NCBI RefSeq assembly: GCF_024218775.1
Contig: NZ_CP100404.1
Span: forward strand, 62,001 to 126,000
Direction: 5' to 3'
DNA from: Haloarcula marina
Lineage (GTDB): Archaea; Halobacteriota; Halobacteria; Halobacteriales; Haloarculaceae
DNA: 64,000 nucleotides
Shown here piece by piece: positions 3,911 to 43,830 of this stretch (position 1 is the stretch's first letter; the number at the start of each line of letters is the position of its first letter). A program made the translations under genes and the position numbers. The notes under the pieces were generated by a model. It made no database searches and had not been told where the DNA came from. It was given only the letters and a program-made list of their open reading frames with translations.

Positions 3911-5995
3911 ATGTCACTCGCGCTGCAGACGACCACGCGGCCGACGTTCTGGCGCATCGGCGACGTGGGGAAAGCCGTCTTCTACTACCTCGCCGCGCTG
4001 GCTATCCTCGTCTTTCTGTACGGCGTCTACGGTCGTGTGCGTCGGTACGCCCGCGGGAGCGACGACCCGTTCGACCGCCTCGACAACCTGCCCGACCGGA
4101 CGCTGACGGCGGCGCGACTCGCCCTCTCGAACCGCAAGCAACTGGACCGCGACGCGGTGGCCGGGGTGATGCACGCCTTCGTCGTCTGGGGTTTTCTGAC
4201 CCTGCTCATCGGGACGACGATTCTCGGCGTCGACATGGACCTCTACCGCCCGCTGACCGGCGACTCGTTCTTCGTCGGGCGATTCTACCTCTCGTACTCG
4301 TTCGTGATGGACGCGATGGGACTGCTGTTCGTCGTCGGCGTCGGCGTCGCCCTGTGGCGTCGGTACGGGCGCCGTCTCGACAGACTCCACGGCCGTCACA
4401 CCTCCCGCGAGGACGGCCTGTTTCTGGGGGCGCTCTTCCTGCTGGGCGTCGGCGGCTACCTCACCGAGGGCGTCCGGATTCTCGGCACGTCGACGGTGCG
4501 GGACGTGTCCTTCGAGACGGTGAGTTTCGTCGGGTGGTTCGTGAAAGACGTGCTGGTGGCCGCGGGCGTGACGCCGCAACTGGCCGCCAGCGCCTACCCG
4601 TTCGTCTGGTGGAGTCACTCGCTGCTGGCGCTGTGGTTCGTCGCGTGGATACCGTACGCCAAGCCGTTCCACATGCTCTCCTCGTTCGCCAACGTCGTGA
4701 CGCGCGACGAGAAGGCGGGCGTCAGACTGCCGGGCGTGCCCGAAGACGCCGCCCCGGAGGACATCGGTCCGAGCGAGATAGACGACTTCTCGTGGAAGCA
4801 GTTGCTGGACCACGACGCCTGCACGAAGTGCGGCCGCTGTTCGGCGGTCTGTCCGGCGACGGAATCGGGGCGGCCGCTGGACCCGCGGGACGTGATTCTG
4901 GACCTGAAACGCTACCGGGAAGAGGTGGATGCGGGCGGCGAGACGGTCCCCATCATCGCCGACGGCGGGACCTCGGTCATCGACGCACACACGATGGAGT
5001 CCTGCATGTCCTGTATGGCCTGCATGGACGCCTGCCCCGTCGACATCGAACACGTGACCCAGTTCACCGAGATGAACCGACGGCTCACGGAGTCCGGCGA
5101 GATGGACGACCACGTGCAGGACGCGATGATGAACGCGTTCCAGCACGGCAACACCTTCGGCGACCCCGAGCGCAAGCGCCCCGACTGGACCGAACAACTG
5201 GACTTCGAGGTGCCCGACGCCCGCGACCAGTCGGTGGAGTACCTCTGGTACGTCGGCGACTACCCGAGTTACGACGAGCGGAACAAGCGGGTGGCAAGAG
5301 CCCTCGCTCGCGTCTTCGAGGCCGCCGACGCATCCTATGGCATCCTCTACGAGGACGAGCAAACCGACGGCAACGACGTGCGCCGGGTCGGCGAGGAGGG
5401 CCTCTACGAGATGCTCGTCGAGGACAACGCCGCCGCCATCCAGTCGTGTGAGTTCGAGGCCATCGTGACGACCGACCCCCACTCGTTCAACACCTTCCGC
5501 AACGAGTACCCCGAGTTCGACGCCTGCGAGTGGGACGAGGCCGACGTGTTCCACTACACCGAAGTCGTCGCCGACCTCGCCGAATCGGGCGCGCTCGGCC
5601 TCTCGGGGAACGAACTCGACTACACCGTCACCTACCACGACCCGTGTCACCTCGGGCGGTACAACGACGTGTTCGACGCGCCGCGCGCACTCGTCGACGC
5701 CACGGGGTGTGACCGCCACGAGATGCCGCGCAACCGCCGGGACTCCTTCTGCTGTGGCGGCGGCGGGGGCGGCCTCTGGATGGACTTCGAAGAAGAGTCA
5801 AAACCCAGCGAGGAGCGCCTGCGCGAGGCCATCGAAGACACCGACGCCGGGGCCGAAATCGAGAAATTCGTCGTCGCCTGCCCGATGTGCATGACGATGT
5901 ACGAGGACGGCCGCAAAACCGGCGGCTACGAGGACGACGTCGAAATCGTCGGCCTGACCGAACTGCTGGCCGAGGCGGTCGGCGGGTCGGCCTGA
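3911..5995 (+). CDS. HdrD-type heterodisulfide-reductase-like Fe-S oxidoreductase with NarI-like membrane domain
   Basis: This 694-residue fusion begins with a membrane domain of about five helices (residues 15-290) resembling NarI/HdrE cytochrome b subunits. Next come two [4Fe-4S] motifs, CTKCGRCSAVCP at about 304 and CMSCMACMDACP at about 364. C-terminal CCG-type domains follow, the last with DPCHLGRYND and FCCGGGGGGLW near 615. The first CCG unit is poorly conserved. Family knowledge points to electron transfer between membrane quinones and a soluble partner such as glycolate/lactate-type or electron-transfer flavoprotein dehydrogenases; methanogen heterodisulfide is not expected here. Start at ATG 3911, since the upstream reading covers the divergent promoter. 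Confidence 0.9.
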   Translation: MSLALQTTTRPTFWRIGDVGKAVFYYLAALAILVFLYGVYGRVRRYARGSDDPFDRLDNLPDRTLTAARLALSNRKQLDRDAVAGVMHAFVVWGFLTLLIGTTILGVDMDLYRPLTGDSFFVGRFYLSYSFVMDAMGLLFVVGVGVALWRRYGRRLDRLHGRHTSREDGLFLGALFLLGVGGYLTEGVRILGTSTVRDVSFETVSFVGWFVKDVLVAAGVTPQLAASAYPFVWWSHSLLALWFVAWIPYAKPFHMLSSFANVVTRDEKAGVRLPGVPEDAAPEDIGPSEIDDFSWKQLLDHDACTKCGRCSAVCPATESGRPLDPRDVILDLKRYREEVDAGGETVPIIADGGTSVIDAHTMESCMSCMACMDACPVDIEHVTQFTEMNRRLTESGEMDDHVQDAMMNAFQHGNTFGDPERKRPDWTEQLDFEVPDARDQSVEYLWYVGDYPSYDERNKRVARALARVFEAADASYGILYEDEQTDGNDVRRVGEEGLYEMLVEDNAAAIQSCEFEAIVTTDPHSFNTFRNEYPEFDACEWDEADVFHYTEVVADLAESGALGLSGNELDYTVTYHDPCHLGRYNDVFDAPRALVDATGCDRHEMPRNRRDSFCCGGGGGGLWMDFEEESKPSEERLREAIEDTDAGAEIEKFVVACPMCMTMYEDGRKTGGYEDDVEIVGLTELLAEAVGGSA

Positions 5996-6035
5996 CCGAG
6001 CGAACCCTTACACCGCTCGACCGCCAGTTCCCCGT

Positions 6036-6767
6036 ATGGACGTAGCGTTGCTCACCGTCGGCGACGAGTTGCTGGCGGGCGATACGGAGAACACGAACGC
6101 GACGTGGCTGGCCCAGCAGTTGACCGACGCGGGCGCGACGGTCACGCGCATCCTCACCGTGCCCGACGACGAGGCGGTCATCGCCGATGCCGTCTCGCGG
6201 TACCACGCGGCGTTCGACGCCGTCGTCGTGACCGGCGGCATCGGCGGGACGCCCGACGACGTGACGAAAGCCGCCGTCGCGCAGGCCTTCGACCGCGAAC
6301 TGGTCGTCCCCGACGACGTGCGCGCCCACCTCGAAGCGAAGGCCGACCGGTTCGCCGAGAACAACCCCGAGGTGGTCGACCGCTACGAGATGGACCTCGA
6401 CTTGGACGCGTGGGCGGCGGTCCCCGAGGGGGCCGACCCCCTGCTGACCGACGAGAGCTTCGCCGCCGGTTGTGTCCTCGACGGCGTCTACGTCATGCCG
6501 GGCATCCCCGAGGAACTGAAGGCGATGTTCGCCACCGTCGCCGAGGACTTCGGCGGCGACCGGACGACTGAGACGATTCACACCCCCGCGCCGGAAGGGG
6601 CCGTCGTGAGCACCATCGTCGAGGCCCGCGAGCAGTTCGGCGTCGCCGTCGGCAGTTACCCCCGAAAGGGCGACACACCGGGGCGGGTGAAGGTGACCGG
6701 CGACGACCCCGAAACCGTCATCGCCGCCGCCGCGTGGCTTCGGGAACGCATCGAGACGATAGACTAG
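6036..6767 (+). CDS. CinA-like molybdopterin-binding (MoaB/Mog fold) protein
   Basis: This 243-residue protein consists of the MoCF domain: VALLTVGDELLAGDTENTN at the start, then VVVTGGIGGTPDDVTKAAV, the GGxGxTxxD loop of MoaB/Mog/CinA proteins, and PGIPEELKAMF. It has the length of CinA N-terminal-only proteins and lacks the C-terminal nicotinamide-nucleotide deamidase domain, so a competence name would mislead. The activity may be ADP-ribose or NMN-related pyrophosphatase, as in other CinA N-domains; that is inference. Its stop overlaps the convergent DedA stop by four bases. Confidence 0.88.
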   Translation: MDVALLTVGDELLAGDTENTNATWLAQQLTDAGATVTRILTVPDDEAVIADAVSRYHAAFDAVVVTGGIGGTPDDVTKAAVAQAFDRELVVPDDVRAHLEAKADRFAENNPEVVDRYEMDLDLDAWAAVPEGADPLLTDESFAAGCVLDGVYVMPGIPEELKAMFATVAEDFGGDRTTETIHTPAPEGAVVSTIVEAREQFGVAVGSYPRKGDTPGRVKVTGDDPETVIAAAAWLRERIETID

Positions 6768-7396
6768 AGTAGTTCGAGGACGCCCATCGCCGCGCCCGCC
6801 AGCAGAATCTCGAACGAGAGCGTGCCGAGCGCCGACAGCGCCGCGAACCGCCGGGTCGTCATGCCCGCCACGCCCGCGGGGACGGTCAGCATCCCTCGCG
6901 TGAACAGGAGTGTGTTGCTGAGCGGCACGGCCAGCAGACCGTAGCGGTCGAACATCGCGCCGAAGCGGTCCATCCGACCCTCCTCCACTCGAAACCACGG
7001 TCGGTCGAGCAACCACTCGCGGCCGCCGCGTTTCGCCAGCAGGAAGAGCGCCGTCTGCCCCAGCGTCGCCCCCGCGACGGCGACGGCGAGGATAGCGGCC
7101 ACGGCGGGGAAATCGTACCCGCCGGTGGTGCGCGCGAGGACGGCCACCGCGGCCGGGACGAGCGCTTCGCTCGGCGCGAAGTAGAGCAACATCGCCCCCT
7201 CCAGCACGAAGACGAAGAAGAGCGCGACTAAGCCGTAGCGGCGCAAGAGCGCCTCGGCGTAGGCCGTATCGCCGAAGACGTACAGCGCGATGCCCGCGAC
7301 GCCGAGGAGGGCGAACAAGCCCGCCACCACCAGCAGGCCGTAGTCCTCCGCGAAGGTGCGAACCGGGCCGCGGGCGTCGGCGGCGTCTGTCGCCAT
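6764..7396 (-). CDS. DedA-family (VTT/SNARE-associated domain) membrane protein
   Basis: This 210-residue protein has about five hydrophobic segments. It shows the DedA pattern: a re-entrant, acidic and aromatic loop (LLYFAPSEALVPAAVAVLA), a G-rich helix (VAVAGATLGQTALFLLAKRGG) and a later PLSNTLLFTRGMLTVPAGVAGM loop with an Arg and Pro. DedA proteins are inner-membrane lipid scramblases or transporters that affect envelope homeostasis; the archaeal substrate is unknown. An ACATATGT box about 30 bases upstream could be its promoter. It is convergent with the CinA-like gene. Confidence 0.87.
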   Translation of the reverse strand: MATDAADARGPVRTFAEDYGLLVVAGLFALLGVAGIALYVFGDTAYAEALLRRYGLVALFFVFVLEGAMLLYFAPSEALVPAAVAVLARTTGGYDFPAVAAILAVAVAGATLGQTALFLLAKRGGREWLLDRPWFRVEEGRMDRFGAMFDRYGLLAVPLSNTLLFTRGMLTVPAGVAGMTTRRFAALSALGTLSFEILLAGAAMGVLELL

Positions 7397-7442
7397 CTAT
7401 CGCCTAGGGCGGGCAACGCAGACATATGTTTTCTGCATCTAG

Positions 7443-7490
7443 CCGTCGCGGTCCGTCGCGGTCCGTCGCGGTCCGTCGAAGGGACCGCGA
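7443..7490. repeat. Three tandem 10-bp repeats ending in a 9-bp hairpin
   Basis: The unit CCGTCGCGGT is present three times at 7443-7472 plus a partial fourth. TCGCGGTCC (7466-7474) pairs with GGACCGCGA (7482-7490) around a 7-base loop. It sits immediately 3' of the stop of the minus-strand gene at 7492, so it may act as a terminator or mRNA 3' stabiliser. Three units are too few and too short for a CRISPR array. Confidence 0.7.
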
Positions 7491-7491
7491 T

Positions 7492-7752
7492 TCAGCGGTG
7501 CTCGGTTCGCGCCGAGACTTCGACCGTCTGGTCGCCACGGACGGTCACGACGTGTCCGGCGTAGTCGAACGTTACCCGACCGCTGGTGTGTCGGTCGGCG
7601 AAGAGTTCGTTCAGCGCATCGGTGTCGATTGTCTCGTACAGCGGCGGCAGATCCGTCGCCGATGTCCCCGTCCTCGAACAGACCGCGTCGATGACCTTCG
7701 ACGCGACGCTCCCCGTTGTGTTCGAGTGTGCTTGTAATTTCACTTCGCGCAT
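7492..7752 (-). CDS. HalOD1-domain protein
   Basis: This 86-residue protein matches the haloarchaeal output domain HalOD1 over almost its whole length: VASKVIDAVCSRTGTSATDLPPL, then LYETIDTDALNELF, then GRVTFDYAGHVVTVRG. HalOD1 units are short stand-alone proteins or the output ends of signalling proteins; their biochemical role is not established. Start at ATG 7752 rather than 7794, because TAAATATAAAA at 7774-7784 is a strong TATA box about 27 bases upstream, giving a leaderless transcript. Confidence 0.85.
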   Translation of the reverse strand: MREVKLQAHSNTTGSVASKVIDAVCSRTGTSATDLPPLYETIDTDALNELFADRHTSGRVTFDYAGHVVTVRGDQTVEVSARTEHR

Positions 7753-7773
7753 GCCTACTCTGACACTGCGTTG

Positions 7774-7784
7774 TAAATATAAAA
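7774..7784 (-). promoter_or_regulatory. Strong TATA box for the HalOD1 gene
   Basis: The A/T-only run stands out in high-GC surroundings, lies 22-32 bases before the ATG at 7752, and reads TTTTATATTTA on the coding strand, close to the haloarchaeal TATA consensus. Confidence 0.65.
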
Positions 7785-7916
7785 GGATTTTCACTCAACA
7801 GGTGGTAATGTTTCGACTGGAGAATACAACGACCCTACTCGCGCGGTCTGTCGCGTGGAGCGACGCGCTGTCACCGACAACGGGTTTTTTCTCGTCGGCG
7901 TCGAATGAGGCGACAG

Positions 7917-9920
7917 ATGGAACTGGAATCGGTGCCGGGCGTCGGGGCGAAGACGGCCGCCGCGCTGCGCGAACTGGACGACCCGGAACGAGCGCTCAGC
8001 GAGGGAGACGTCGCCACGCTCGCCCGGGCACCGGGCATCAGCGAGGGGCGGGCCGCCCGCATCGCCCGGGGGGCGATACGGGCCGACCACGACGACCCCG
8101 GCGGATTCGCCGCGACGCCGCGCGCCCGCGAGATTTTCCGCGACGCGCTCGGCCTCCTGCAGGAACGCACGGTCACCGACTACGCCGCCAAGCGACTGGA
8201 AACGCTGTACCCGAGCGGCGTCCAGAGCCGTATCGAGGAGGTCCGCGCGTTCGCCGAGCGAGCGATGGCCCGGGACCCCGACCCCGCCGTCGCCGAGGCG
8301 CTCGAACACGTCGAACCGCTCGCGGACCCCGCAGACGTACGGGTCCGGGACCGCTGTCTCGCGACGAGCGACGCCGAGCGGTACGCGAAGGCCCAAGACG
8401 CTATCCCCGAGGTGAGCGTCGAAGTCGTCGACGACGCCCGCCAACTGGCCGAACTCGCCCGCTCGTACTCGACAGTGGTCGCGCTGGACGAGGCGTTCGC
8501 GGGGGTCGACGTCGAGGGAGACGTGCGGGTCGAACCCGACGCGCTCGACGAACCGGCCTCGGTCGTCCCCGAACGCGTCCTCACCTTCTTCGCGCGCAAC
8601 CGCGACCGGATTCGCGCCGCCGCGGAGGTACACCGAGTGGCGGGCCTCGACGCGCCCTGTGACCTCGACGCGCTCACGGCGGCCCTCGACAGACTGGGCG
8701 AGGACGGCGAGGTCCGGGGCGACGAGGAGTTGAACCGCCTCGGGACGGCCGTCGACGATTTGGACGCCGCGGCCGCTACCGCCGAGAGCGTCGCCAACGA
8801 CCACCTACGAGAGGCCATCGAGGAACGGGACGTGACCATCGAGGGGACCGACCTCCTCTCACTGGTCGAACGCGGCGCGGGCGTCGACTCGCTGTTGGAC
8901 CGCGAACTGGCCGACGAGTACGCCGCCGCCGTCGAACGGGCGCGGGACCACCTCGTCGACGCCCTCCAGTTGCGCGATACGGAGGCGATGGCGCGCCGAG
9001 CGTTCCCGGACGACCCGACCTATCCGGTCGAACGACAGGAGGACGTGGTGAGTCGCCTCCGGGAGGAACTGACCGCCGCGCGGGACCGCCGCGCGACCAG
9101 ACAGAAGCGCGCGCTGGCCGACGACCTCGCCGAGATGCGGACCGACGCCGAGCGGTTGGTCGCCGACGCGCTGGAACTGGACGTGGAACTGGCCGTCGCT
9201 CGCTTCGCCGCGGACTTCGACTGCACGATGCCCGACGTGACCGACGACGAGGGGTTCGAAATCGCTGGCGGGCGCTCGCCCCTGCTCGACGTGTCCTTCG
9301 AAGCGGTCGAACCGGTCGACTACCGCGTCTCCGGCGTCACGGTCCTCTCCGGGGTCAACAGCGGCGGGAAGACGTCGACCCTCGACCTGGTGGCGCTGGT
9401 GACGACGCTTGCCCACATGGGCCTGCCCGTCCCCGCCGAGTCCGCTCGCGTCGGCCGCGTCGCGGAACTGCACTACCACGCCAAGACCCAGGGGACGCTG
9501 GACGCGGGCGCGTTCGAGGCCACCCTGCGGGAGTTCGGGGACCTCGTCACCGAGATTACGGCCGACCGGCCGGTGATGGTGCTCGTCGACGAACTGGAGT
9601 CCATCACCGAACCCGGCGCGAGCGCGAAGATTATGGCGGGCATCCTCGAAGCGCTGGGCGACCGGCAGGCGACGGCCGTCTTCGTCTCCCACCTCGCGCG
9701 GGACATCCGCGCGGCCGCCGCCACCGAAGTCCGTATCGACGGCATCGAGGCGGTGGGCTTAGAAGACGGCGAACTGCGGGTGAACCGCTCGCCCGTGAAA
9801 GGGAAACTCGCCCGGTCGACGCCGGAACTCATCGTCGAGAAACTGGCCGACGGCGACGGCGAGGACGACGGGACCGACGGCGGCTTCTACGCGGGACTGT
9901 TGGCGAAATTCGACGAGTGA
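7917..9920 (+). CDS. MutS2-like/MutS-family ATPase with N-terminal helix-hairpin-helix
   Basis: The protein has 667 residues. The first 45 form a helix-hairpin-helix pair (SVPGVGAKTAAALRELDD, ARAPGISEGRAARIARG). A long helical lever and clamp region follows to about 440, then a MutS ABC ATPase with Walker A LSGVNSGGKTSTLD near 480, the Q-loop region, and Walker B VMVLVDELESI near 555. The mismatch-recognition and Smr nuclease domains are absent, unlike bacterial MutS1 and MutS2. The family is common in archaea and its role (recombination intermediates or translation rescue) is unproven. An alternative ATG at 7905 would add four residues; 7917 starts at the conserved MELESVPG. Confidence 0.88.
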   Translation: MELESVPGVGAKTAAALRELDDPERALSEGDVATLARAPGISEGRAARIARGAIRADHDDPGGFAATPRAREIFRDALGLLQERTVTDYAAKRLETLYPSGVQSRIEEVRAFAERAMARDPDPAVAEALEHVEPLADPADVRVRDRCLATSDAERYAKAQDAIPEVSVEVVDDARQLAELARSYSTVVALDEAFAGVDVEGDVRVEPDALDEPASVVPERVLTFFARNRDRIRAAAEVHRVAGLDAPCDLDALTAALDRLGEDGEVRGDEELNRLGTAVDDLDAAAATAESVANDHLREAIEERDVTIEGTDLLSLVERGAGVDSLLDRELADEYAAAVERARDHLVDALQLRDTEAMARRAFPDDPTYPVERQEDVVSRLREELTAARDRRATRQKRALADDLAEMRTDAERLVADALELDVELAVARFAADFDCTMPDVTDDEGFEIAGGRSPLLDVSFEAVEPVDYRVSGVTVLSGVNSGGKTSTLDLVALVTTLAHMGLPVPAESARVGRVAELHYHAKTQGTLDAGAFEATLREFGDLVTEITADRPVMVLVDELESITEPGASAKIMAGILEALGDRQATAVFVSHLARDIRAAAATEVRIDGIEAVGLEDGELRVNRSPVKGKLARSTPELIVEKLADGDGEDDGTDGGFYAGLLAKFDE

Positions 9921-36461: not shown

Positions 36462-38321
36462 TCACGTGGGAGCGAGGCCCCAGAAGAAGGCGATGCCGAG
36501 CGTCGTCACGACGGCGAAGATGGCCTGTAGGGGCGCACCGGCCCGGATGTAGTCGCTGAACCGGTAGCCGCCGGGACCGTAGACGATGAGGTTCGTCTGG
36601 TAGCCGACAGGCGTCATGAAGGCCGTCGAGGCGGCGAAGGTCACGGCGAGGACGAACGCGAAGGCGTTGGCGTTCAGTTGCTGGGCGGCCTCGACGGCGA
36701 CCGGAATCATCAGCACCACGGAGGCGTTGTTCGAGATGACGTTCGTCAGGAGGGCGGTGACGACGTACATCAGGCCCAGAGCGACGACGGCGGGCAGACC
36801 GGGCGCGGCCATCACGAACAGGTCCGCGAGCAGGTCCGCGCCGCCGGTCTCCTGTAAGGCGACGCCGAGGGGAATGACGCCCGCCAGCAGGAAGATGACG
36901 TCCCACTGGACGGCGTCGTACAGTTCCTGCGGGCGGAGACACCCGGTCAGCACCATCAACACCGCCCCGGCGAGCGCCGAGGCGACGATGTGGACGGGCG
37001 TGAGGGCGGCGACGCCGACGACGGCGGCGACGATGCCCACGGCGACGGGAATCTTCGAGCGGCGGTAGTCCGGCCGTTCGACCTCTTGGGCGACGATGAA
37101 GTTGCGGTTGCGGTTCAGCCGTTCGATGCTGTCGGCGGTGGCCTGCACCAGCAGGGTGTCGCCGACTTTCAGGCGGACGCGGTCCATCCGTTGACGGAAC
37201 AGTTCGCGGCCGCGCCGGAGCGCCAGCACCGTCGCGTCGTAGCGCTGGCGGAAGTTCGCGGTCACCAGCGTCTCGCCGACGAGGGCGGACCCGGGGGCGA
37301 CGACGAGTTCGACGAGGTTCTGTTGTTCGCTCGCGCTCTCCAGTTCCGCGTCGTCGACCTCGACTTCGGGGATGAGGTCCAACCCCTCGGCGTCGAGTAA
37401 GTCGACCAGCGTGTCCCGGTCGGTCCGGACCGCGAACACGTCCCCCGCCTGAATCGACTTCGGGTCCAGCGGTTCGAGGAAGGTACGGTCCCCGCGGACC
37501 AGTTGGATGACGTCGACGTCGAACTCCGTCTCGGCCAGCGCTTCCCGAACCGTCTGCCCGATGATGGGCGAGTCCTCGCGGACGACCACCTCGGTGAGGT
37601 ACTCGGCCATCTCGAACTCTTCGGTGAGGTCTTCGCGGGCCGGGATGCGCTCGGGGACGAGCCACCGGCCCACGGTCAGCAGGTAGAGGGTGCCGACGGC
37701 GGCGACGACGACCCCCAACTGCGTGAACTCGAACATCCCGAAGGGGTGGCCGAGCAGTTCCGCCGACAGTTGCGAGGCCAGGATGTTCGTCGACGTGCCG
37801 ATGAGCGTGAGCATGCCGCCGAACATCGAGGCGTAGGAGAGCGGGAGGAGGAGTTTCGATGGCGAAATCTTGCCCTCGTGTGCGATATCTGTCACCATCG
37901 GGAGGAGGATGGCGACGGCGGCGGTGTTGTTGATGAATCCCGAAATCGGCGCGACCAACCCGACCGTCGCGCCGAGTTGTCTCGACTCGCTGTCGCCGGT
38001 GAGCGCGGCGAGTTTCGCGCCGAGAATCTGGACGATACCCGTCCGCTGGACGCCGTCCGAGAGGATGAACATCGCCAGCACGGTGATGGTCGCCGTCGAG
38101 GCGAACCCGGACAGCCCGCGGGTCAGCGGCGAGACGCCGTCACCGGGCTGGTGGAGGACGTACAGCGGTTCGGCGAGCAGGCCCGCCTCGGCGAGGCCCA
38201 TCGTTGTCGGTTCGACCAGCAACAGGGCGACCATCACGCCGATAGCGGTCACGTCGACCGGGAGCGCCTCCGTGGCGAACAGCACGAGCGCGACGAGAAC
38301 CAGCGCGAACACGAACGCCAT
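36462..38321 (-). CDS. SLC13/DASS-type permease with two RCK_C (TrkA_C) domains
   Basis: This 619-residue protein has about 11-12 membrane helices in two halves, with SGFINNTAAVAILLPM and LTNVISNNASVVLMIP as the paired NN[TA] motifs of the DASS/CitMHS superfamily. Between the halves, about residues 205-395, lie two RCK_C units (SPIIGQTVREALAETEFDVDV; SALVGETLVTANFRQRYDATV) that may bind a regulatory ligand. Transport of sulfate, dicarboxylate or another anion is likely but not determined. A TTG at 38375 could add 18 residues; ATG 38321 is preferred. It lies 72 bases downstream of the 40421 gene. Confidence 0.9.
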   Translation of the reverse strand: MAFVFALVLVALVLFATEALPVDVTAIGVMVALLLVEPTTMGLAEAGLLAEPLYVLHQPGDGVSPLTRGLSGFASTATITVLAMFILSDGVQRTGIVQILGAKLAALTGDSESRQLGATVGLVAPISGFINNTAAVAILLPMVTDIAHEGKISPSKLLLPLSYASMFGGMLTLIGTSTNILASQLSAELLGHPFGMFEFTQLGVVVAAVGTLYLLTVGRWLVPERIPAREDLTEEFEMAEYLTEVVVREDSPIIGQTVREALAETEFDVDVIQLVRGDRTFLEPLDPKSIQAGDVFAVRTDRDTLVDLLDAEGLDLIPEVEVDDAELESASEQQNLVELVVAPGSALVGETLVTANFRQRYDATVLALRRGRELFRQRMDRVRLKVGDTLLVQATADSIERLNRNRNFIVAQEVERPDYRRSKIPVAVGIVAAVVGVAALTPVHIVASALAGAVLMVLTGCLRPQELYDAVQWDVIFLLAGVIPLGVALQETGGADLLADLFVMAAPGLPAVVALGLMYVVTALLTNVISNNASVVLMIPVAVEAAQQLNANAFAFVLAVTFAASTAFMTPVGYQTNLIVYGPGGYRFSDYIRAGAPLQAIFAVVTTLGIAFFWGLAPT

Positions 38322-38393
38322 GGCTGGCGTGACGGGGGGCAACGACACATCGAGGAGTCCGGCAGGGAGGTCCAAAAGGTTGCGGATTGGCCG

Positions 38394-40421
38394 TTATTCG
38401 GCGTTCGGCTCGCGTCCGAGGTCCGCCAACAGCGCCTCGTAGCTCCGCGCGAACACCGGGACGGTTCGGAGCGAGTTCGTCGCGACCTGAAACACCGGGA
38501 CGGCGAGCGGCCCCGAGGGTCCGTCGACGACGACGGCCGCCTCGTGGTCCGTCTCGTCGGTCCACGCGCCGTCCACCTCGCGGACCAGCACCTCGCCGAA
38601 GTAGCTCCCGAGTTCCGTCGTGACGCTCGTAAAGGCTCGGTCGTCGAACGTCTCCTCGCTCCCGAAAACGGCGTCCGCGAAGCGGTCGTCGTCCCACTCG
38701 CTCCCGACGAGGGCGTCCAACCGGGCGAGTGACTCCGGCGTGTAGTCGAGGTCGTGTTCGGTCCAGAAGGCGGCGAAGTCGTCGGCCGTCTCGGCGTACT
38801 CCGCGCGGACACCCTGGGGCCCGCTCTCGTCGGTCGCGGGCGACGACGAAGTCTCGGTGTCAGCGTCGGCGTCGCGGGCTGTCTCGGCCGCTGAATCGGC
38901 GTCCCGTCCGTCGGTGTGCGGGTCGGCCGCGGAATCGGCCGTCTCCGAGGGCGTCTCCGCCGGGTCCGGTTCCGACTCGCGCTCCCCGTCCGATTCCACC
39001 TTCGATTCGGTCTCGGCGGGGGGTTCCGGTTCCGCCGCGTCGGTCGCTGCCGACGGGTCGGTCTCGGATTTCTCACTCGGCGTCTCGGGAGACGGCGTCG
39101 CGCCGGATTCGTCGCCGCGCGTCTCCCCACGCTCGTCGGCCGCAGTCTCGTCGGTACTCGCCGCCGCTTCGAGTTCGTTCTCACCCACATCACTCGCCGC
39201 GGCGGTGTCGGCCGCCGTCGTCTCAGTAGGGGCTTCGTCGGCCCTGTCGTCGGTATCGGCCGCCGCTTGCCCGGCATCCCTGTCCAGGGGCACCCCCTCG
39301 CCCTCCGCATCGGCTGCCACAGCGTCGGACTCAGCAGCCGTGGTGCCTTCGGTTCCCTCACCGTCGTCGGCCGTCGCCGCCTCGTCCGCCGCGACCGCTT
39401 CCGAATCGGTCGCTTCGCGCCCGGTTTCCTCGCGCTGCTCAGTCGTCTCCCCGTCGGTCGGTTCGAGACCGTCGGCGGTCTCCGCCGGGGCCTCGGCGCG
39501 CGAACTCGCCGCCGCTTCGGACTCGAAGACGGGCATCGTCGCGGGGTCCGGTTTCGACTCGAAGACAGGAATCGTTTCCGGGTCCGGTTTCGACTCGAAG
39601 ATGGGCATCTCTGCGGGGTCGGCCTCAGTTACCGCCGTCCCTTCCAGTTCACCCACCTCGTGCGCCGCTTCCGGGTGGCTACTGTCCGCAACGGCGGCCG
39701 TCGGTTCCAACGCCGTCGGGGACCCGTCGCCACCCGAGTCGGCGTCGTCCGCGTCGGGGTCGTTCGGGTCGTCGCCCGCAGTGTCTGCCGCCTCGTCGGT
39801 CTTCAGTGGGGCCGGGGGGATTCGTTCCTCGGATTCGGTCAAATCTTCGAACTCGACGCCGGGGTCGGTGTCGCCGTCGTCACCGTCGTCGATGAGTGCC
39901 ACGTCCTCGGCGGGGAGCGTGAGTTCGTCGTCCAACCGGGCGGCGACGGCGCTGAACACCGGGTCGCCGCCGATAGAGCGAGCGGCCACCTCGAAGACGG
40001 ACACGGTGACCGAGTCGTCGACGCCCTCGACGGTGACGACCCATCCCCCCTCAGTCGTCCACTCGCCGTCGTACACCCGGACCAGCGTCTCGCCGAAGTA
40101 GCTCCCGAACTGGACGGTCTTCGGCGAGTAGCCGTCCTCGTCGGCGGGCGACTCCTCCACCCAGTCGTCGCGGTCGGCGATGGCTGTATCGAGGCGTTCC
40201 AACGACGCCCGCGAGAAGTCCAGCGGGTCGGCGTCGCTCGCCGCGTCCGCCGCCCGCGTTCGGAACGCCTCGGCGTCCAGTGCCGTGACGTCGATGCGCG
40301 CCACGGCGCTCTCGCCCCCCGAATCGTGTGCCGCGTCGTCGGTCCCCGTCGACGATTCCCCCGCCCCTGCCGACTCGTCGTCGCCGCCGACCGCACGGCG
40401 GATGCTGTCGAACAGGCCCAT
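38394..40421 (-). CDS. Large acidic two-domain protein with repeat-rich disordered linker
   Basis: This 675-residue protein has similar domains at both ends. The N-terminal one (about 45-165) has FGSYFGETLVRVYDGEWT, VSVFEVAARSIGGDPVFSAV; the C-terminal one (about 540-675) has LGSYFGEVLVREVDGAWT, VPVFQVATNSLRTVPVFARS. Between them lie about 350 residues of Asp/Glu/Ala/Ser/Thr-rich sequence with short repeats of the form PVFESKPDPATM (three or more near 260-300). No signal or membrane helix. The duplicated fold is unknown to me; YFGE-type motifs occur in small bacterial proteins of unknown function. Start ATG 40421. Confidence 0.82.
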   Translation of the reverse strand: MGLFDSIRRAVGGDDESAGAGESSTGTDDAAHDSGGESAVARIDVTALDAEAFRTRAADAASDADPLDFSRASLERLDTAIADRDDWVEESPADEDGYSPKTVQFGSYFGETLVRVYDGEWTTEGGWVVTVEGVDDSVTVSVFEVAARSIGGDPVFSAVAARLDDELTLPAEDVALIDDGDDGDTDPGVEFEDLTESEERIPPAPLKTDEAADTAGDDPNDPDADDADSGGDGSPTALEPTAAVADSSHPEAAHEVGELEGTAVTEADPAEMPIFESKPDPETIPVFESKPDPATMPVFESEAAASSRAEAPAETADGLEPTDGETTEQREETGREATDSEAVAADEAATADDGEGTEGTTAAESDAVAADAEGEGVPLDRDAGQAAADTDDRADEAPTETTAADTAAASDVGENELEAAASTDETAADERGETRGDESGATPSPETPSEKSETDPSAATDAAEPEPPAETESKVESDGERESEPDPAETPSETADSAADPHTDGRDADSAAETARDADADTETSSSPATDESGPQGVRAEYAETADDFAAFWTEHDLDYTPESLARLDALVGSEWDDDRFADAVFGSEETFDDRAFTSVTTELGSYFGEVLVREVDGAWTDETDHEAAVVVDGPSGPLAVPVFQVATNSLRTVPVFARSYEALLADLGREPNAE

Positions 40422-40460
40422 AGACACGGCAAGACGGCCTGCCTACAAGAAGGTACGCCC

Positions 40461-42533
40461 CTAGTGCTCCTCGCGCAGTTCCATCTCGGCGACGATGTCG
40501 TAGGGGTCCAGTCCCTTCCGGATGCCGTCGAGCAACTGGAACGCCTCGTCGGGCGCGAGGAAGTGCCGGGTCACGGCCCGACCCAGCGGCGTCGGCGAGA
40601 GGCCGTCGATGAACTCGAACTCCAGCAGTTTGCCGAGGGCGTGTTTGGTCGGCACTTCGCCGACCATCCGGTCGTTGAGGCGTTTCGCGTGCTTGCCCGC
40701 GACGGTCACGTTCGCCAGCGTCTCCTCGACGGCCGCGCCCTCGTCGTAGCGGGTCATGACCGGTTCCATCTCCCCTTTGAGGAGTTTGAACGCCACCTCG
40801 TCCTCGGTCATCTCCATGCTGTTGTGGTACGAGCAATCGGGTTCGACGAGGACGTACACCGTCCCCTTGTCGTGGTAGTCCGGCCGTCCGGCCCGCCCGA
40901 GCATCTGACTGAACTCCTGGACGGTGAGCCACTCGATACCCATCGCCAGCGAGTCGAAGATGACCTGCGAGGCGGGGAAGTCCACCCCCGCCGCGAGCGC
41001 CGCCGTCGTCACCACCGCCGCGAGTTCCTGGTCGGCGAACTGTCGTTCGACCTGCTTTCGCTTGCGGTTGTCCAGTCCGGCGTGATACGGCGCGGAACTG
41101 TACTGGAGCTTTCGGGAAATCTGGTGACAGCGCCGCCGCGAGTTGGTGAAGATGATGGTCTGCCCGCGATACCCCTTGCTCGATTTCGTGTCGAACGCGC
41201 GCTTGACGAGTTTCTTCTCCGTATCTATCTTCTCGCGGCCGTCGGCGAAGGTGACGTGTCGTTCGATGGGGACCGGGCGCTCCTCGAACTCCACCAGCGT
41301 CGCCCGCAACCGCTTGGCCAGTTGGCTGGGGTTACCGACCGTCGCCGAGAGGTATATCCACTGGGTGTCGCTGTCGGCCTGTTTCCCCCCGTCGTGCCGG
41401 GAGGCCGCCGTCGTCCCCTCCTCACAGTAGTACTTCAGCCGCGAGATGAGGCCGTCGAGTCGGTGGCCGCGTTCGTCCTCCCCGAGGGTGTGGACCTCGT
41501 CGATGACGACGGTGCCGACGTTCCCGAGGTCCTTCCCGGTCCGAAGCGCGTGGTCGATACCCTCGTAGGTGCCGACGATGATGTCGGCGTCGGGGTCGAA
41601 GCGGCCGCCCTCGTCGGCGATACGACTCGCGCCCACGCGCAGGGACACGTCCACCATGTCGCCGTAGCGCTCCTGGAAGGACTCGTACTTCTGGTTCGCC
41701 AGCGCCACCAGGGGGACGAGAAACAGCATCTTCCCCTGGCCGTTCAGCACGCGGTCCAAGCCCGCCATCTCCCCGATGAGCGTCTTTCCCGTCGCCGTCG
41801 CGGAGACGACGAGTTGGTCCCGGCCGTCGGTCGCGCCGTGTTCGACGGCGAGGCTCTGGACCGGAAGCAGGGTGTCGAACCGGGATTCGAGGTGTTGCTG
41901 GATGCCCGGGTGGAGGCCCAGCGAATCCACGCGAACGGGGTCGACGTCCTCGACGGTGGCCGATATCTCGTCGAACTTCGTCAGGTCCGGGTCCAGTTGG
42001 CCCGACAGGAGGTTCGTGATTCGGTCCAAGTCCTGCACTTCCAACAGGAGTTCTTCGAGTCGCTTTCGAGCGTCACCGGTGATGTTGCCCTCGAAGGCGA
42101 GTTCTCGGTCGAGTTCCTCGCGAGCGCAGTCCGGACAGATGCTCTCGCCGTCTGCCTCGATGGCCGTCTCGCCCGTGATGGGGGAGTAGCGGCCCGCCGA
42201 CGCGCAGTATCGGCAGGTTCGGACGACTTTCGCGTCGAGTTGGTAGCCGTCGAGCATCTCGCGGAAGCGGTCGCGAACCCGCGGCGTCGTCTGTTCGGAG
42301 ATGCGGATGCGGGCCGCGCGGCGGGCGAGTTCGACGAACTGGTCGGGCGAACGGAGGTCCTCGCCGGACCCGCCTCTAATGCGGAGGCGTCGGGGCCGCG
42401 GCCCCGCGTTCGTCTCCTTCAGTTCGAGCACCCCGTGGAACAGTCGTTCCCCGTCGCGTTGGGCGACCACACGGGCGTCTTCCCCGTGTTCGTGAAGGAA
42501 CAGCGTATCCACCTTCGCGGCCTGCTGAGACAC
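40461..42533 (-). CDS. Archaea-specific superfamily-2 helicase (COG1202-like)
   Basis: This 690-residue protein has an N-terminal region with a zinc-finger-like CRYCASAG/CPDC pair (about 106-137), then the helicase core: LPVQSLAVEHG, Walker A SATATGKT near 245, DEVH, SATVGN, IIFTNSRRRCHQIS, GVDFPASQVIFDS and QMLGRAGRPDYHDKG. Start is a GTG at 42533. The group is related to Hel308/Ski2 helicases and its physiological role is unknown. Related archaeal helicases carry a C-terminal Cys-rich domain; here the protein ends without it, and a similar domain is encoded separately at 48973. Confidence 0.88.
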   Translation of the reverse strand: MSQQAAKVDTLFLHEHGEDARVVAQRDGERLFHGVLELKETNAGPRPRRLRIRGGSGEDLRSPDQFVELARRAARIRISEQTTPRVRDRFREMLDGYQLDAKVVRTCRYCASAGRYSPITGETAIEADGESICPDCAREELDRELAFEGNITGDARKRLEELLLEVQDLDRITNLLSGQLDPDLTKFDEISATVEDVDPVRVDSLGLHPGIQQHLESRFDTLLPVQSLAVEHGATDGRDQLVVSATATGKTLIGEMAGLDRVLNGQGKMLFLVPLVALANQKYESFQERYGDMVDVSLRVGASRIADEGGRFDPDADIIVGTYEGIDHALRTGKDLGNVGTVVIDEVHTLGEDERGHRLDGLISRLKYYCEEGTTAASRHDGGKQADSDTQWIYLSATVGNPSQLAKRLRATLVEFEERPVPIERHVTFADGREKIDTEKKLVKRAFDTKSSKGYRGQTIIFTNSRRRCHQISRKLQYSSAPYHAGLDNRKRKQVERQFADQELAAVVTTAALAAGVDFPASQVIFDSLAMGIEWLTVQEFSQMLGRAGRPDYHDKGTVYVLVEPDCSYHNSMEMTEDEVAFKLLKGEMEPVMTRYDEGAAVEETLANVTVAGKHAKRLNDRMVGEVPTKHALGKLLEFEFIDGLSPTPLGRAVTRHFLAPDEAFQLLDGIRKGLDPYDIVAEMELREEH

Positions 42534-42636: not shown

Positions 42637-43830
42637 ATGCGTCGGTTCCGCATCGGGAGCGCCTTCGGCATCCCCATCCAACTCGACCTGACCTTCCTGC
42701 TGGTCTTGCCCCTGTTCGCGTGGATTATCGGGACCCAGGTCGGCCAGACCGCCGAGTTGCTGAACGACTCGTTCGGCGCGGGCCTCGACCCGGCGGTGTT
42801 GACCGACGGGAACCTCGTCTGGGTGCTCGGCGTCGTCGCCGCCGTCGGCCTCTTTTCGGGAGTCGTGTTGCACGAACTGGGTCATTCGCTCGTGGCGATT
42901 CGCTACGGCTATCCCATCGACTCCATCACCCTGTGGTTGTTCGGCGGTATCGCCCAGTTGACCGAGACGCCCGAGGACTGGAAGCAGGAACTCGCCATCG
43001 CTGTCGCCGGACCCGCCGTCAGCGTCGCGCTCGGTATCCTCGCGTACGTCGCGTTCGTCGTTCTCCCGGCCACCCAGTCGACGGTCCTCGAAGCGGGCCG
43101 GTTCGTCCTCGCCTACCTCGCGCTGATGAACCTCGCGCTCGCCGTGTTCAACATGCTTCCGGGCTTCCCGATGGACGGCGGTCGGGTCCTCCGGGCGCTC
43201 CTCGCCCGTACCCGCCCGTTCGCGCAGGCGACGAAAATCGCCGCCGAAGTCGGGAAGATATTCGCCGTCTTGCTCGGCCTGTTCGGCCTGTTCGTCGCCG
43301 GGAACATCTTCCTCGCGGGACTCGCCTTCTTCATCTACATCGGCGCGGAGGGCGAGTCGCGACAGACGGCGATGGCCGCCGCGTTCGAGGGCGTCACCGT
43401 CGAGGACGTGATGACCCCCGCGAGTCACGTCACGTCGGTCACGACCCGGATGTCGGTGCGAGAACTCATCCAGACGATGTTCGAAGAGCGCCACACCGGC
43501 TACCCCGTCGAGCAAGGCGGCGAAGTCGTCGGCCTCGTTACCTTGGAGGACGCCCGCGCGGTCCGCGAAGTCGAACGCGACGCCTACACCGTCGGCGACG
43601 TGATGACCACCGACCTCTACACCGTCGCGCCCGAGACGGACGTGATGGACGCGCTCACGAGACTCCAGCAGAACTCGGTCGGCCGACTGGTCGTCACCGA
43701 CCCCGACGGCGAGTTCCTCGGTCTCCTCACCCGGTCGGACATCATGACCGCCCTCTCCATCATTAAGTCCAGCAGCGAGTACGGGTCGCTGGGCGGGTCC
43801 GAGTCGCGCACGCTGCGACCGGAACCGTAG
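42637..43830 (+). CDS. Site-2 protease (M50) family membrane metalloprotease with CBS pair
   Basis: This 397-residue protein has about six membrane helices. The zinc site HELGH is near 79-83 in VVLHELGHSLVAIRYGYPI, and the second motif FNMLPGFPMDGGRVLRALL near 170-188 supplies the Asp ligand. From about 250 two CBS domains follow (EDVMTPASHVTSVTTRMSV; GDVMTTDLYTVAPETDVMD) that probably bind an adenosine nucleotide and regulate proteolysis. S2P enzymes cleave membrane-bound regulators within the bilayer; no anti-sigma-like substrate is adjacent. Confidence 0.93.
   Translation: MRRFRIGSAFGIPIQLDLTFLLVLPLFAWIIGTQVGQTAELLNDSFGAGLDPAVLTDGNLVWVLGVVAAVGLFSGVVLHELGHSLVAIRYGYPIDSITLWLFGGIAQLTETPEDWKQELAIAVAGPAVSVALGILAYVAFVVLPATQSTVLEAGRFVLAYLALMNLALAVFNMLPGFPMDGGRVLRALLARTRPFAQATKIAAEVGKIFAVLLGLFGLFVAGNIFLAGLAFFIYIGAEGESRQTAMAAAFEGVTVEDVMTPASHVTSVTTRMSVRELIQTMFEERHTGYPVEQGGEVVGLVTLEDARAVREVERDAYTVGDVMTTDLYTVAPETDVMDALTRLQQNSVGRLVVTDPDGEFLGLLTRSDIMTALSIIKSSSEYGSLGGSESRTLRPEP

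Follow-up and report, generated by a model that had tools for sequence, protein, structure and literature searches.

The window, i.e. the whole stretch of 64,000 nucleotides of Haloarcula marina that was analysed, encodes on its minus strand a protein with two homologous terminal domains (heads) joined by a long acidic linker, and from profile comparisons we conclude that the head is a remote homologue, not a member, of the bacterial domain families DUF3806 and DUF6278. The reading frame ends with a stop at 38394; its longest form (38394-40427, minus strand, 677 aa) opens with a GTG at 40427. The likelier start is the ATG at 40421, from which a CDS of 675 aa (38394..40421, minus strand) beginning with MGLFDSIRRAVGG is read, since the resulting N-terminus is common to most relatives. 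The coordinates of the original prediction fit this minus-strand frame: 40421 is the ATG of MGLFD, and the GTG lies six nt further out.

An iterated profile was seeded with both heads and run on the window, L004 and the fetched loci, where it gathered 119 head segments; one pair among these is counted twice, because L004 is apparently identical with L041. In the window protein, the profile matches an N head (39927..40229, minus strand; residues 67-167, GTG numbering; 103.8 bits) and a C head (38424..38756, minus strand; residues 558-668, GTG numbering; 136.7 bits). The Smith-Waterman score of the N end against the C end is 147, over about 108 N-end and 123 C-end residues, compared with 36.2 +/- 6.6 when the C end was shuffled 2000 times (Z = 16.9; no shuffle scored above 71), and the two heads share 36% identity (alignment A2). 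The internal duplication that had been proposed from the letters alone is borne out well beyond chance, and both ends are homologous. The motifs proposed to be shared were recovered in part: SYFGE is present in both heads (residues 109 and 608, GTG numbering), and the exact PVF-VA-S-VPVF pattern in the C head only, because the N head reads VSVFEVAARSIGGDPVF.

In a tree of 53 selected heads, ten Haloarcula C heads form one clade (SH-aLRT 99) near head 2 of the g6 proteins (82), and nine N heads group with one g4 head 1 (94; sub-group of the window, 99); this was a quick tree in which support is weak for 24 of the 50 inner branches, and the head 1 from g4 is partial and long-branched. On this topology the heads are old paralogues, with N and C heads having diverged before the origin of the genus.

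The AF2 model of the C head (mean pLDDT 74.4; pTM 0.73) was computed from just four sequences, all taken from the window and L004; two of the five models exceeded a pLDDT of 70, and the other three were near 50. It comprises helices 2-14, 21-34, 37-40 and 58-75, strands 88-93 and 96-101, and helices 102-111 and 116-127. The model of the N head (mean pLDDT 54.6) has its elements in the same order, a short helix and a short strand excepted. Unrelated folds of the two ends had been named as the outcome that would speak against a duplication; the order of elements agrees, with fair confidence for the C head only, and therefore the claim of homology rests on sequence. A search of PDB sequence profiles with the head profile (A1, 39 haloarchaeal heads) gave no match up to E 10, and with the actinobacterial alignment described below (A5) it gave five weak matches (best E 0.19), mostly to designed proteins. 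Similarly, Foldseek with the C-head model reached E 0.6 in the PDB and 0.066 in BFVD at best, none of which is trusted, and the best VIA-align score (Z 3.9, with TetR-type regulators in the top rows) was treated as noise. Because the C-head model was built on so few sequences, we make no claim of a new fold from these failed matches.

The most invariant positions among the 39 heads are A5, Y66, W79 and A106 (39/39), followed by D28 (38) and D18, S23, R73 and F116 (37); E69 is kept in 34. To our eye, these columns spell out no recognised catalytic set, and D18, S23, D28 and R73 (each in 37-38 of 39 heads) together with E69 leave room for a catalytic or ligand site. An enzyme with an active site in each head, made up of D18, S23, D28, E69 and R73, would account for the conservation of these residues; against it, E69 is replaced in five of the 39 heads and no enzyme family was reached by sequence or fold searches, and we consider it very improbable.

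For the kinship of the head, the best Pfam match of the C head was DUF6278 (PF19794; 22.1 bits, E 1.3e-4), which lies under the curated cut-off of 26.4 bits; 14 of the 39 heads match DUF6278 at E up to 1, and the N head gave no DUF6278 match in the Pfam scan. For DUF3806 (PF12713; cut-off 21 bits), neither head of the window matched at E up to 1, and there was no match in its own genome. NCBIfam gave no match for the protein or for either head. The profile searches with single heads that had been suggested earlier thus led, for the C head, to a family below its cut-off. A tblastn match on a Streptomyces plasmid (E 4, which is nothing by itself) opened the path to a small actinobacterial family, in which the Streptomyces plasmid protein L114 is over the DUF3806 cut-off (22.5 versus 21 bits) and L112, L115 and L116 match DUF6278, all under its cut-off. 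Alignment of the head profile A1 with these four proteins (L112, L114, L115 and L116; A5) by hhalign gave a probability of 97.7% and E 1.5e-12 over 61 columns, a figure that is flattered because the four proteins were picked via a match to the head of the window, and that covers the domain without its C-terminal half; none of the controls, i.e. ten column-shuffled profiles and the reversed one, exceeded 0.8%. Within this alignment, in which no protein is over the DUF6278 cut-off, hhalign recovered homology of the DUF6278 core, i.e. an LD..S..S helix, a G.Y.GE..R helix and a W.

The actinobacterial proteins with a weak match to DUF6278 have, like the heads, an LD-x-S-x-x-S helix and a G-x-Y-x-G-E helix, then a W; unlike the head protein, all four actinobacterial relatives are small (143-170 aa) and have neither an acidic arm nor an MGLFD start. 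For DUF3806, the set that includes the cut-off-passing L114 aligns to the haloarchaeal profile, whereas the heads of the window themselves do not match. A count of DUF6278 over 294 genomes of the phylum (no matches) is uninformative, because the control genomes gave 0/14 as well; for DUF3806, the control set gave matches in 5/14 genomes, including Haloferax volcanii, and over the cut-off in two, which are not singled out. The remark that the domain has no function known holds, since the families to which the head is now tied are themselves without known function. The searched library contained no paper naming DUF3806, DUF6278, PF12713 or PF19794, and among the matches listed for Haloarcula with disorder or acidic linkers there was nothing about the head protein, as far as the text given with these matches goes.

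The N-terminus MGLFDSIRRAVGG (40383..40421, minus strand), which was absent from the original prediction, recurs in relatives and is unusually amphipathic. Of 62 head-bearing ORF rows, 53 have a start of the type MG[LIV][LFM]D ahead of the heads, whether the protein has one head, two or three. The nine exceptions are L069, L074, L084, L091, L094, L095, L097, L098 and the second piece of L061; two of these, L094 and L098, begin with a similar KLLQRLTGLFG instead. The hydrophobic moment is 0.57-0.77 across seven variants of the start (0.63 for MGLFDSIRRAVGG), and six of these (0.61-0.77) were compared with the starts that our own crude gene caller assigned to 169 further proteins at 18 loci; none of the 169 was as high, and their median was 0.22. 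The g4 start MGVFDFLPGRGG fits the MG[LIV][LFM]D pattern yet contains a proline. A role of MGLFD as a general tag in the genome was rejected, as the DNA pattern encoding a segment of the MGLFDSIRRAVGG type occurs once in its own genome. Amphipathicity alone is no proof of membrane binding; together with the recurrence of the segment, it suggests that the protein may attach to a membrane via its N-terminus. In L069, windows of 19 residues exceed 1.8 on the Kyte-Doolittle scale inside the first 60 residues. This protein (5946-8384) is three-headed, with transmembrane-like N-terminal segments in place of the amphipathic start, and the gene upstream of it is, judging by its sequence, presumably another helicase-like gene.

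The linker (38757..39926, minus strand) comprises 390 residues between the profile matches, with 31% D+E, 4% K+R and 9% FWYILMV, and is probably disordered and flexible, judging by its composition. It had been described as an acidic, low-complexity arm of 350 residues made of repeated FESKPDP units; the acidity and low complexity stand, and the flexibility of the arm is supported by its composition, whereas the length is 390 residues and the repeat array does not hold. FESKPDP occurs in two exact copies and a third, decayed FES copy, encoded by a 36-bp DNA tandem (39520..39620, minus strand; 2.8 copies, 80% matches), and as this tandem covers only about 34 of the 390 residues, the linker as a repeat array was rejected. 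No FES pattern was found in the other head-bearing ORFs of the compared set, within which it is thus confined to the window protein.

The comparison of linker lengths among relatives, which had also been suggested, gave 115-448 residues, i.e. an about fourfold range, in 27 two-headed proteins of the genus (the window and 26 of the 29 fetched main loci). In ten chosen pairs, pN/pS (as uncorrected proportions) was 0.41-0.92 for the linker, 0.10-0.65 for the N head and 0.03-0.37 for the C head; the linker value exceeded that of both heads in all ten pairs, and the N head exceeded the C head in seven. The linker is less constrained than either head. Such a variable, weakly constrained arm would suit a halophile device for solubility or crowding, in which the acidic arm acts as an entropic bristle while the second head is a duplicate that is slowly decaying and is tolerated; the weaker constraint on the N head in seven of the ten pairs, and its loss in two of the loci described below (L042 and L044), point the same way. 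However, the C head is the less constrained one in the remaining three pairs, the N heads are under purifying selection (pN/pS 0.10-0.65) with their core residues kept, and the split between N and C heads predates the genus, all of which makes a bristle of this kind unlikely.

The number of heads per protein is one, two or three, as found by profile search in the 59 fetched loci with heads. The 30 main loci of the genus (the window and L040-L068) comprise 27 with two heads in one frame, two with the C head only, and one with the heads in split frames. The two C-head-only loci, L042 (6071-6952) and L044 (6134-7858), are without an N head and have MGLFDKVRRAVGG, a short acidic stretch and then the C head. 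In L061, the N and C heads are in different frames (5434-8175 and 6477-7199), and therefore its linker contains a frame change (by mutation or assembly error). The position of the long linker also shifts: six g6 loci have three heads with the linker between heads 2 and 3, and two g4 loci (L085 and L086) have it between heads 1 and 2. A second two-headed type with a short linker of 57-64 residues (L087, 5318-6478; L088, 5565-6743; L096, 5468-6577) sits away from the helicase locus described below; the genomes of two of these three belong to the window's genus. Furthermore, L081, L083, L089 and L092 are single-headed MGLLD proteins of one genus and adjoin a common neighbour gene, the start of which (VIVGCGGAGNNTVNRLYN) we take to resemble FtsZ.

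The original prediction was that of a two-headed protein that bridges two partners. Given the one-headed relatives, the two loci that lack an N head, and a linker that elsewhere lies between other heads, a bridge strictly between two partners is unlikely to be what the protein does in general.

Within the genus, 31 of 32 genomes match the head, 30 of them strongly; the weakly matched and the unmatched genome are incomplete assemblies (58% and 71%). Close relatives were found in Haloarcula pellucida and Halomicroarcula rubra, and a more distant one on a plasmid of Halomicrobium urmianum. In the draw of the order (n=392 genomes), 125 pass E 0.1, those beyond the strong set being mostly marginal; 51 have a best match of E <= 1.6e-10 by our count from the listing, with 42 in the window's family and six, two and one in three other families. 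Across 392 genomes of the phylum, A1 matched at least eight genomes at E up to 1e-3, one of them marginally (8.8e-4), in a scan that scored ten candidates for each genome. In the window's own genome, a weak third place varies with the query (E 0.14 for the N head; elsewhere, a 33-column match at E 0.026 for A1). In searches of mobile elements, a scan of IMG/VR gave 77 candidate stretches and no relative, the C head was unmatched in phage records and the N head in plasmids, and in PHROGs the C head of the window found no family; two PHROGs families were each weakly matched by one of the 39 heads.

Polyimmunity proteins consist of diverged small domains in tandem and in variable number, and by analogy the heads might be immunity modules against incoming toxins, gathered in tandem. 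The head protein shares the tandem, diverged copies and their variable number, and small single-headed members exist (e.g. L081, L090 and L091). It differs from polyimmunity proteins in its amphipathic start, its acidic arm and its single locus in the genus: with matches in 31 of 32 genomes and one locus across the 30 compared, it does not behave like a gene of a variable island, and none of three scanned neighbours (helicase, permease and M50 peptidase) is a toxin. We regard this analogy as highly improbable.

Upstream of the head gene, 39 nt before its ATG, lies a DEAD/DEAH-box helicase gene (40461..42533, minus strand; Pfam DEAD and Helicase_C), and downstream, 18 nt past its stop, a permease gene (36462..38375, minus strand; CitMHS and TrkA_C domains; its TTG start is uncertain). 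An M50 peptidase gene with CBS domains (42637-43830) is divergent from the helicase gene. The helicase is on the same strand and directly upstream at all 29 fetched main loci of the genus, with 41-164 nt from the helicase match (stop included) to the ATG, and the permease is downstream on the same strand at 28 of them. Among 31 other fetched loci, which include L087 and L088 (second loci in genomes of the genus) and L099 (no head by profile), the helicase is upstream in ten, at 58-79 nt in L070, L072, L073 and L075-L077 and further off in L071, L085 and L086 (708-943 nt) and in L091.

This arrangement would fit an accessory of the helicase that is made together with it and whose heads bridge it to another factor, in line with the two-partner arm of the original prediction. 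Order-wide, however, the helicase is near-universal (111 of 117 genomes of one draw, and 97 of 97 near-complete ones) whereas the head gene was found in 51 of 392 genomes of another draw at E <= 1.6e-10; at two loci of the window's family (g4; L117 and L118), the helicase and permease matches are 137 and 158 nt apart and the profile detects no head; and four of the five g7 loci (L078-L080 and L082) as well as the fetched g85 loci have no copy of the helicase in the fetched stretch. We consider such an accessory role improbable, and a functional tie between head gene and helicase is possible but not required. As judged from these gene orders, the locus is conserved and the head gene is a lineage-specific occupant of it.

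The reading that we favour, tentatively, is that of an adaptor at the cytoplasmic surface of the membrane, which would present one to three binding heads via an acidic arm. The amphipathic N-terminal helix (or, in one relative, the transmembrane-like segments) would anchor the chain at the inner membrane face; the acidic, disordered arm would keep the related heads, one to three in number and each of about 110 residues, off the membrane surface; and each head would be a binding module rather than an enzyme, with higher avidity where there are several. Contact with the membrane is suggested here by the N-terminus, disorder by composition, and binding rather than catalysis by the conserved columns of the heads. 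The adaptor reading would include a two-partner bridge as one of its versions, and its membrane tether leaves the conserved helicase neighbour unexplained. A broader proposal, that of a haloarchaeal family of multivalent scaffolds at the membrane surface, with one to three heads remotely like DUF3806/DUF6278, an acidic arm and an amphipathic anchor, in which rapid turnover of repeats would set the length of the arm and thereby a species-specific reach, is possible and somewhat doubtful.

A protein that is unannotated yet near-universal in a haloarchaeal genus is now linked to a group of bacterial domains that have no known function. Its natural variants, which differ in head number (one to three) and arm length (115-448 residues) and include relatives in which the site is empty, would suit tests of tether length and valency in culturable archaea.
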